A stretch of DNA of 64,000 nucleotides, taken from Haloglomus litoreum. GTDB taxonomy: Archaea > Halobacteriota > Halobacteria > Halobacteriales > Haloarculaceae. Below, piece by piece: positions 44,658 through 49,385 of this stretch (its first letter is position 1; each line of letters opens with the position of its first letter). A program made the position numbers and the translations under genes. The stretch covers positions 2,976,001 to 3,040,000 of the forward strand of contig NZ_CP119988.1 in assembly GCF_029338515.1 (NCBI RefSeq), given 5' to 3'. The notes under the pieces were generated by a model. That model was given only the letters and a program-made list of their open reading frames with translations. It made no database searches and was not told where the DNA came from.

Positions 44658-45920
<1,263 letters not shown>

Positions 45921-47859: not shown

Positions 47860-47877
47860 GAATAGCGGGAAGTAGAT
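47860..47877. repeat. near-copy of the tRNA-iMet 3' end (att- or guide-like)
   Basis: GAATAGCGGGAAGTAGAT matches 16 of 18 bases with GAATAGCGGGCGGTAGAT at 49212-49229, the 3' end of the initiator tRNA-Met, in the same orientation. The two copies are 1352 bp apart and enclose the second tnpB. It begins about 30 bp beyond the tnpB stop. Confidence 0.7.
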
Positions 47878-47907
47878 ACCAGTTGCTCCGATGCTTGTCC
47901 GTGTCGG

Positions 47908-49095
47908 TCACCCGGGGACGAACGTCCCGTTGGCGGTGACGGTCCCAGACTTCAGGGCACACTGGCGGGTGCCCGTCCCCCGTGACGACTGAGGGCCACG
48001 ATGGACGTGTTTGAGCGCGACGTTCTTCGCCGCGTTGTAGTCGGCATTCGCCTCCGATCCACAGGCGACGCAACAGAAGTGTCCCCTGCTCCGCCGGTTC
48101 CCATCGGCGACGTGGCCACAATCGGAACAGCCCTTCGAGGTATCCCGCGGGTTGACGGAGACGACCTCGATTCTGGATGCCGCTGCCTTGTAGCGGAGGT
48201 ATTCTCGGAGCTGGCGAAAGGCCCAGATGTGGAACCAAGTCGCTTCCGGCAGCTCGTCGCGAATCCCGGTCAACTCCTCGACGGCGATGGTCGAGCAATC
48301 GTGGCGCAGCGCTTCCTCCACGATCCCGTTTGCAATCTCGTGGAGCCGTTGTCGATGGCGTCGTTCCTCGTTGCCCGACAGCTGTTGCAGCGTCCGATGG
48401 GCACTCCGCGTTCCCGTCTGCTGCAGCGAGGCTCGGCGTCGATCGAACTGCCTGCGCTCGTGGGTCGCCTCTCGACCGCTGAAGAATCGCGCCGTGCTCG
48501 TGACGGCGATGTTCTCGACGCCGAAGTCGACCCCGAGGACCGCTCCGTCCTCGGCAGCTAGCTGTTCCTTCGGCCGTCGAAACCCGATGTGGAGGTAGAA
48601 CTCCCCGTCGCGAACCGTGAGCGAACTCTCCGTGACAGACCACCGGTCGGTATTCAGGTAGCGGTACTGGTAGCCATCGTCGTCCTCGGGTAGTACGAGC
48701 TCCGGTCGAACACGCCCCTCTACGGTCGTGAGCGAAACCGTCCCATCGTCGAACAGCGTCATCGTCCGTGCGTCGTACGGGACGGTCGGGCTGGTAAATC
48801 GTGGCTTCGAGGCTTGGCGACCGGCTGACCACCGGTCACGGACACCAGCAATCGCCTCTGCAGCCCGGTGCGTGGCCAGAATCGCGTGCTGGCTCTTCAG
48901 CTCGGTCGACTCGCGGACCTCATCGTAGACACGTGACTGGAGCGCCAGCTTCTCCGTGACTCCGGGGAAGCCGCGGTCGACCGCGAGCTGACAACCACGG
49001 CGGAATTCATCAATCGTACGCTCGAGTAGCCGAAGGTCAGATTCCTCTACACGAAGCCGCGTAATCGCCGTCCGGTAGAGGTACTCGTCGGCCAC
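47908..49095 (-). CDS. tnpB: second TnpB nuclease, beside tRNA-iMet
   Basis: 395 residues, starting at GTG 49095; no nearby ATG is in frame. The triad is intact (VLGVDFGVEN, TIAVEELTGI, NADYNAAKNVA), as is the zinc finger (KGCSDCGHV...FCCVACGSEA). It is only distantly like the other TnpB. An AAATATC box lies ~23 nt before the start. The 3' end shares ACGGACAAGC with the other element, but I see no end hairpin after it. Upstream, 49150-49168 is a 7-bp A/T palindrome (ACATATA/TATATGT). No tnpA is present. It may be a fixed, not mobile, copy. Confidence 0.9.
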   Translation of the reverse strand: MADEYLYRTAITRLRVEESDLRLLERTIDEFRRGCQLAVDRGFPGVTEKLALQSRVYDEVRESTELKSQHAILATHRAAEAIAGVRDRWSAGRQASKPRFTSPTVPYDARTMTLFDDGTVSLTTVEGRVRPELVLPEDDDGYQYRYLNTDRWSVTESSLTVRDGEFYLHIGFRRPKEQLAAEDGAVLGVDFGVENIAVTSTARFFSGREATHERRQFDRRRASLQQTGTRSAHRTLQQLSGNEERRHRQRLHEIANGIVEEALRHDCSTIAVEELTGIRDELPEATWFHIWAFRQLREYLRYKAAASRIEVVSVNPRDTSKGCSDCGHVADGNRRSRGHFCCVACGSEANADYNAAKNVALKHVHRGPQSSRGTGTRQCALKSGTVTANGTFVPG

Positions 49096-49211
49096 GAGGC
49101 CGAATGCTGCGTTTTGATATTTGAAGTCTTGCCGGGAGAGGTGTATTAGACATATATCGAATATATGTTGTGGGGATCGTGGAGAAGTCTCTAGAATACT
49201 TATTTCCCGGG

Positions 49212-49229
49212 GAATAGCGGGCGGTAGAT
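49212..49229. repeat. 18-bp segment at the tRNA-iMet 3' end, repeated at 47860
   Basis: Spans the T-arm and acceptor 3' strand of the tRNA plus three flanking bases. Its near-copy lies 1352 bp away, beyond the second tnpB. The segment is preceded (on the minus strand) by TTCAA in the T-loop. Confidence 0.7.
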
Positions 49230-49289
49230 TTGAACTACCGGTCTCCGGGTTATGAGCCCGGCGGAATCTCCTGGCTATCCCAGCCCGCT
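49215..49289 (-). tRNA. initiator tRNA-Met (CAU)
   Basis: 75 nt, no intron, no encoded CCA. The acceptor stem is AGCGGGC / GCCCGCT, with A1-U72 as in initiators. Anticodon loop CTCATAA gives CAU, on a stem CCGGG / CCCGG with the three G-C pairs diagnostic of initiator tRNA. The T-arm is GGTAG-TTCAAAT-CTACC. The elongator tRNA-Met in haloarchaea usually carries an intron, which this one lacks. Confidence 0.95.
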
Positions 49290-49385
49290 ACCAACTCGTA
49301 GCGCGACACCCCGGTTAAGGGTTGTGCTATCGGCGTCGCAATGAAACGAAGTCACACACGGCGGCGGGGCGAGCGCTCACCAGAT

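Follow-up and report, generated by a model that had tools for sequence, protein, structure and literature searches.

An IS200/IS605-type tnpB gene beside the initiator tRNA gene of Haloglomus litoreum: a probable RNA-guided toxin-antidote element

Introduction

TnpB is the ancestor of Cas12. In ISDra2 and in TnpB7 of S. islandicus, an IS200/IS605-type TnpB and its omega-RNA combine a RuvC nuclease with an RNA from the right end of the insertion sequence (IS), a guide supplied by the flank and a transposon-adjacent motif (TAM) that equals the insertion site. The same traits can be read from the sequence for a tnpB gene beside the initiator tRNA-Met (tRNA-iMet) gene of the haloarchaeon Haloglomus litoreum, in a window of 64,000 nucleotides (contig NZ_CP119988.1, positions 2,976,001 to 3,040,000; the whole stretch that was analysed), and ordinary relatives of the ISDra2 and TnpB7 type are present inside its own subfamily. 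Unlike ISDra2 and TnpB7, most of the copies described here have lost the left end and mobility, every guide is the 3' half of a tRNA, and the host target has changed in a way that would resist the nuclease. We propose, with a probability of about 0.7, that an IS200/IS605-type tnpB element was fixed beside an essential tRNA gene and works there as an RNA-guided toxin-antidote (cleave-and-rescue-like) unit.

Synthetic Cleave-and-Rescue and home-and-rescue drives likewise direct a guided nuclease against an essential gene, carry a tightly linked resistant version and are transferred as one unit (PMC7951863, PMC7968924). Unlike these, the present system is natural and archaeal, its target is a tRNA gene, the resistant allele stands in place and not as a second copy, and its drive is a presumed one. 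Like the homing endonuclease genes of introns and inteins, it would couple a selfish nuclease to a conserved essential gene and be expected to spread when a cut empty allele is repaired; it differs in being RNA-guided, in lacking splicing and in a self-protection by changed bases instead of interruption of the site. As in archaeal tRNA-integrated elements, the tRNA 3' end is used and duplicated and the tRNA stays intact, but there is no integrase and the boundary is an IS right end with TTCAA. To our knowledge, the cleave-and-rescue gene drive has so far been known only in engineered form. Solo haloarchaeal tnpB genes with omega-RNAs or sotRNAs are also of the IS200/IS605 type and have a known, expressed 3' RNA (PMC12558985); in contrast to the loci studied here, no tRNA-directed guides are described in the accessible part of that report. 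Nor was a description of such guides found in the mainly open-access literature, and one may exist elsewhere.

Results

A displaced tRNA 3' half lies behind the right end of tnpB

On the minus strand the locus reads tRNA-iMet (49215-49289), tnpB (49095-47908), the right end …GAGCAACTGGT and then ATCTACTTCCCGCTATTC (47877-47860). Its parts are as follows.

49215 to 49289, minus strand: initiator tRNA-Met gene with an altered 3' half (C7-G66 pair; guide-region ATCTACCGCCCGCTA), found by ARAGORN (49214-49290) and Rfam (RF00005)
49230 to 49234, minus strand: TTCAA in the tRNA T-loop, the TAM and insertion-site sequence of this TnpB subfamily as judged from 42/63 ordinary copies
49212 to 49229, minus strand: tRNA 3' half, the would-be self target, in which the bases facing guide positions 7 and 8 are mismatched
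47908 to 49095, minus strand: tnpB, an open reading frame of 395 amino acids with no adjacent tnpA and with the ordinary left end lost
47894 to 47903, minus strand: CACGGACAAG, conserved right-end motif (omega-RNA scaffold), from comparison of the copies
47878 to 47883, minus strand: element right end ACTGGT (GTTGAT or GTTGAC in relatives)
47860 to 47877, minus strand: predicted omega-RNA guide, the displaced tRNA-iMet 3' half ATCTACTTCCCGCTATTC

The sequence ATCTACTTCCCGCTATTC (47877 to 47860) is identical at 16 of 18 bases to the tRNA 3' end ATCTACCGCCCGCTATTC (49229 to 49212), which follows TTCAA in the tRNA at the position matching the guide copy. As the preliminary description had noted, the two copies have the same orientation, are spaced by 1352 bp and enclose tnpB as the sole gene. 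A 16/18 match was reached in 0 of 3000 Markov-shuffled 1.4-kb stretches, and the pair is therefore more than chance. The copy begins 30 nt past the tnpB stop, again as first described, and stands immediately behind the right-end hexamer ACTGGT. The initiator identity of the tRNA was given by ARAGORN and Rfam, and the A1:U72 pair and the GGG/CCC anticodon stem were read directly. The guide-region of the usual haloarchaeal tRNA-iMet is ATCTACCTCCCGCTA or ATCCACCTCCCGCTA, and that of the window tRNA is ATCTACCGCCCGCTA.

The window TnpB matched Pfam OrfB_IS605 and Cas12f1-like_TNB above the cut-off, and the PDB chains matching it by sequence were TnpB and Cas12f. In its catalytic columns the RuvC D-E-D triad and the four zinc cysteines are intact. 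A right-end RNA motif followed by a flank-derived guide can be read from the sequence. Ordinary copies have a left end at a fixed insertion motif (TTCAA|...GCGGTAGCGCGGAG), which is absent from the window copy. Ordinary mobility depends on such an end, whereas the identity as a TnpB does not; the window copy therefore counts as a TnpB, although the IS element is not intact. When the 4.7-Mb Haloglomus genome was searched with TAM and guide, the tRNA-iMet gene was the only match, with 2 mismatches, and no other target was found.

tRNA-directed guides recur in the subfamily

From the haloarchaeal order, 135 loci of the subfamily were compared, with one genome per species; related lineages among the loci and genomes are not independent. 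A tRNA gene on the same strand was present within 700 bp upstream of tnpB at 30 of the 135 loci, and one on the opposite strand at 2 (sign test 2e-7). The linked set (n = 32) consists of the same-strand loci and three further Halorubrum/Halopiger loci, with L160, which has an unrelated tRNA neighbour, set aside. At the 32 loci the right end is followed without a gap by the 3' half of the neighbouring tRNA, which starts with the first base downstream of the T-loop TTCAA or TTCGA. The weakest case is L154 (Gly-GCC), where the match is limited to the first nine bases. Eight amino-acid kinds of tRNA are involved: iMet (4 loci), Ser-CGA (7), Ser-GGA (2), Thr-GGT (11), Ile-GAT (2), Arg-GCG (2) and Gly (2), plus Leu and Pro.

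The motif CACGGACAAG was found exactly or with one mismatch in 28/32 tRNA-linked and 83/94 ordinary copies, compared with 1/126 shuffles. A right-end-like hexamer (GTTGAT, GTTGAC, GTCGAT, GTTGGT and others) stands directly before the guide in 30/32 linked loci. Ordinary copies of the subfamily end with GTTGAC at the right terminus and have TTCAA at the left end in 42 of 63 cases and TTCGA in 4. The TTCAA of the T-loop therefore corresponds to the insertion motif, the presumed TAM, and the tRNA copy occupies the place predicted for the omega-RNA guide. A quick tree of TnpB required at least 14 changes between linked and unlinked states by parsimony, which argues for many independent captures. 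The ordinary left end is lost in most linked copies, the spacer between tRNA and tnpB is without visible conservation, and no shared left end bearing the tRNA 3' half was seen across families.

The preliminary description had offered two readings, an attachment-site pair or an omega-RNA guide aimed at tRNA-iMet, and had called either unusual for a solo tnpB. The parallel loci strongly support the guide. The arrangement may well be unusual for TnpB at large, but it is recurrent here, in about a quarter of the subfamily. Outside the 32 loci, an inverted TnpB faces tRNA-Ser-CGA at L164 (G078:C59); the guide there matches this tRNA, which has TTCGA, over 13 nt.

The guides equal tRNA alleles of element-free relatives

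For tRNA-Thr-GGT, the alleles were counted from the listing of 151 genomes with a detected gene. About 101 had ATCCCGGCCTAGGC, 29 had ATTCCGGCCTAGGC and 5, of Halorubrum, had ATCTCGGCCTAGGC. All 11 Thr-GGT guides were exact over 12 nt to an element-free allele, and the genus-specific forms agreed: Halorubrum elements have ATCTCGG, and those of genus g21 have ATTCCGG as in the element-free congener G161. For Ser-CGA, the guide of G024 equals the tRNA of the congener G167 and the guide of G175 equals the allele of nine congeners. These guides would aim the nuclease at an essential gene.

The iMet guide of the window, taken with its TAM, is identical to a tRNA-iMet allele found elsewhere in haloarchaea, including three species of one genus of the same family. 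TAM and the first 14 nt of the guide were found exactly in 17/392 haloarchaea, mostly in the tRNA-iMet gene and in some only in a tRNA-end repeat. Each of the three Haloglomus iMet guides is one base off the commonest tRNA-iMet allele. The proposed aim at tRNA-iMet would hold for other alleles of this tRNA gene, but the host's own is missed by two seed mismatches.

The host's own tRNA escapes the guide

All 26 linked loci whose own tRNA has TTCAA showed at least 2 mismatches in guide positions 1-12. By contrast, at most 1 mismatch was present in 4 of the 6 loci with TTCGA (Fisher 4e-4). A tightly linked and presumably resistant gene version, with seed mismatches or a changed TAM, thus stands at the 32 loci. 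The hosts of the Thr elements have C65 instead of G65 in the tRNA and often CTC for CCT at 66-68; the 49-65 pair is flipped, with G·U and G-C exchanged, so that pairing is kept in the altered tRNA-Thr. C65 was found in 6/6 element genomes and in 5/145 others (Fisher 3e-8), and one of these 5 (G179) has a truncated tnpB. In tRNA-Ser-GGA, TTCAA is present in 33/34 genomes of the family; the sole TTCGA is that of the element genome G300, and its congener G326 has TTCAA. For Ser-CGA, G088 differs from the congener G050 in the compared T-arm solely by TTCAA to TTCGA.

ISDra2 TnpB cuts 15-21 nt beyond the TAM and no longer cleaves targets with double mismatches at positions 1-12 (PMC10097598). With TTTAA as the TAM, single mismatches are tolerated by an archaeal TnpB, but much less so with TTTGA (PMC11043419). 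The escape pattern is what these mismatch and TAM data would require, and by analogy TTCGA would be a weak TAM for the present subfamily. The clean escape cases are Thr-GGT and Ser-GGA.

Insertion sites and transfer of the unit

Behind the right end, G024 reads ATCGCTCCCTCGGCGTTTTTCTCGCC…, exact over 42 nt to the tRNA 3' half and flank of the element-free congener G167, and beyond this junction the two genomes are collinear over 2.3 kb. At L160 (G364:C17) an ordinary copy splits tRNA-Ser(GGA) at TTCAA^ATC, a case that did not occur in 5703 control joins. The left end of L160 lies inside this tRNA, near other tRNA genes, possibly in an extrachromosomal tRNA cluster.

Second tRNA-end copies also occur in tnpB-free relatives, a case raised by the preliminary description. 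They were seen at about half of the 30 iMet loci examined, mostly 100-250 bp downstream, after a TTCAA-like sequence and not an IS right end, and they do not explain the guide copies. The post-tRNA-iMet units measure ~120-170 bp in about half of the haloarchaea examined and begin with the tRNA 3' half and a hairpin, continue with an inverted T-loop fragment (GATTTGAA) and CG..GTTCAAATC, and close with a repeat of the tRNA 3' half (L248, L249, L250, L256, L261, L265 and the iMet loci L042-L064; L059 has four extra copies). They look like a tRNA-end satellite or the remnant of a site-specific element, and they contain the TAM and target of these TnpBs. L017 has kept a recognisable left end behind TTCAA in an apparent tRNA-end repeat. 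With such repeats being common, the element may often have landed safely in a repeat and not in the gene, and tRNA-end repeats likely supply landing sites. The view that insertion necessarily took place inside a functional tRNA is weakened by these repeats and by L017, yet L160 is an insertion in a tRNA gene proper. Spacers and left ends are mostly too eroded for dating the insertions.

Transfer was seen in three Halorubrum species. Their upstream flanks are 86-92% identical, whereas the tRNA is 100%, the non-coding spacer 98.5-100%, tnpB with the right end 98.4-99% and the guide 94-100% identical; past the guide there is no clear homology. The near-identical core between diverged or unrelated flanks indicates that altered tRNA, tnpB and guide were transferred between these species as a single unit, whose two junctions appear to lie in tRNA sequence. 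Joint transfer of nuclease and resistant gene was observed in this trio only.

Discussion

A cleave-and-rescue-like mechanism

Genome sequences show the insertion rule, the identity of the guides, their match to element-free alleles, the escape of the own tRNA, co-transfer and selection on TnpB, whereas expression, cutting and drive are what we infer. An ordinary copy would insert after the TTCAA of tRNA T-loop sequence, in the gene itself or in a tRNA-end repeat, as observed at the loci above. The tRNA 3' half behind the right end would thereby become the guide. TnpB would recognise TTCAA together with some 12-16 nt of tRNA sequence, and its cut would fall shortly beyond the 3' end of the tRNA; that matching tRNA alleles are cut is suggested by the universal escape. 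The survivors would be cells with a changed tRNA gene, in line with the observed association, either with at least 2 seed mismatches, where compensating or wobble pairs preserve function, or with TTCAA changed to TTCGA. The altered tRNA as linked antidote, and TnpB with its guide as toxin to unaltered alleles, would then be transferred as a unit, as in Halorubrum. Cutting may finally bias transfer during haloarchaeal DNA exchange, and the unit could spread because unaltered alleles are cut and repaired from it. In Haloferax, CRISPR targeting biases recombination toward the targeting strain (PMC12814878). The logic of these steps is that of cleave-and-rescue elements (PMC7951863), of which the present units would be candidate members. 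For the wider claim of a natural RNA-guided cleave-and-rescue gene drive, with many independent origins across haloarchaea, rewritten tRNA genes and spread between species by homing at the tRNA, we consider the chances evenly balanced.

Several points weigh against the toxin-antidote reading. Altered tRNAs occur in element-free genomes, for Thr in G096, G165, G175 and G089 (L173, L175, L176 and L177) and for Ser in G108 and G184 (L183 and L184), at loci with no detectable tnpB. They are possibly scars of lost elements or transferred resistant alleles; under the toxin-antidote reading, each has to be put down to loss, transfer or chance. In tRNA-Ser-CGA and tRNA-iMet, the T-stem varies naturally at positions that the guide seed covers, and drift may thus account for some of the mismatches there. 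With their one-base difference, the Haloglomus guides may act only weakly on the commonest iMet allele. The TAM and the length of the guide are estimates from the flanks, and self-escape alone does not prove drive.

An RNA-guided toxin-antidote unit would bear on how a TnpB nuclease serves the element or the host, and would explain otherwise odd changes in highly conserved tRNA genes. Guide, target, escape changes and transferred unit can all be read from genomes, which would make a natural drive form testable in culturable archaea. The loci would also be a natural record of the mismatches and TAM changes that block TnpB in vivo.

Alternative explanations, age and selection

An unlikely alternative is that TnpB was domesticated to protect a tRNA integration hot spot, where incoming integrative elements, whose attachment sites have the usual tRNA 3' half, or tRNA-end satellites would be cut and the altered host tRNA spared. 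The same anatomy fits, repeats with TTCAA and the target are common beside tRNA genes, and TnpB is under purifying selection. However, no viral attachment-site target was found: the Thr target was in no viral contig searched, with haloviruses being poorly sampled, and the six viral iMet matches were full tRNAs with flanks resembling bacterial phages. The transfer of a unit with its own tRNA and without an ordinary end fits a selfish unit better.

We consider it slightly less probable again that TnpB acted only at and shortly after insertion, that the tRNA changes record past self-cutting and that the present loci are inert. The loss of the ordinary left end, the one-base drift of the Haloglomus guides and fossil loci agree with this; at L188 (G001) and L174 (G179), no more than the first ~40-70 codons of tnpB are left behind an altered tRNA. 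Against it, the RuvC triad is intact in 31/31 full-length linked TnpBs, and the ratio of nonsynonymous to synonymous substitution (dN/dS) of tnpB was 0.11-0.19 in pairs of measurable divergence. The 18-nt guide is 88-100% conserved, whereas the flank behind it is random, and the Halorubrum transfer is recent.

The window locus was compared with its closest relatives, Haloglomus halophilum ZY41 and a metagenome-assembled genome, with 83% and 79% TnpB identity. The order GT2-GtrA-tRNA-iMet-tnpB is common to G000, G002, G003 and G018 (67% DNA identity), and other genera have the tRNA-iMet locus without tnpB. Within Haloglomus, dN/dS was 0.11-0.16 at a synonymous divergence (dS) of 0.7-1.2, and tnpB is under purifying selection. 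The shared locus, this ratio, guide conservation and the intact RuvC site indicate that the window copy is old, vertically inherited and under continued selection. Having lost its left end, it is probably immobile by ordinary transposition.

That a site-specific integrase made an attachment-site pair around a tiny element in the tRNA gene is very improbable. The interval is flanked by a duplicated tRNA 3' end, but it holds tnpB and no integrase gene, in the parallel loci the IS right end exactly marks where the right copy begins, and the TTCAA rule is common to non-tRNA copies, which rules the pair out. What stands of this first reading is that the tRNA 3' half was duplicated, because the element inserted at a copy of it, and that in Halorubrum the unit moves together with an intact tRNA. 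Chance similarity, or a tRNA-end repeat beside an unrelated tnpB, is more remote still: such repeats are common downstream of tRNA-iMet, but they differ in position from the guides, which follow the IS right end at tRNAs of eight kinds, and a chance match is ruled out by the shuffles and the 32 loci.

Other TnpB genes

A second tnpB of another branch lies ~3 kb off at 44658-45920 on the plus strand and matches Pfam OrfB_IS605 and Cas12f1-like TNB. The Haloglomus genome has about 11 TnpB relatives.
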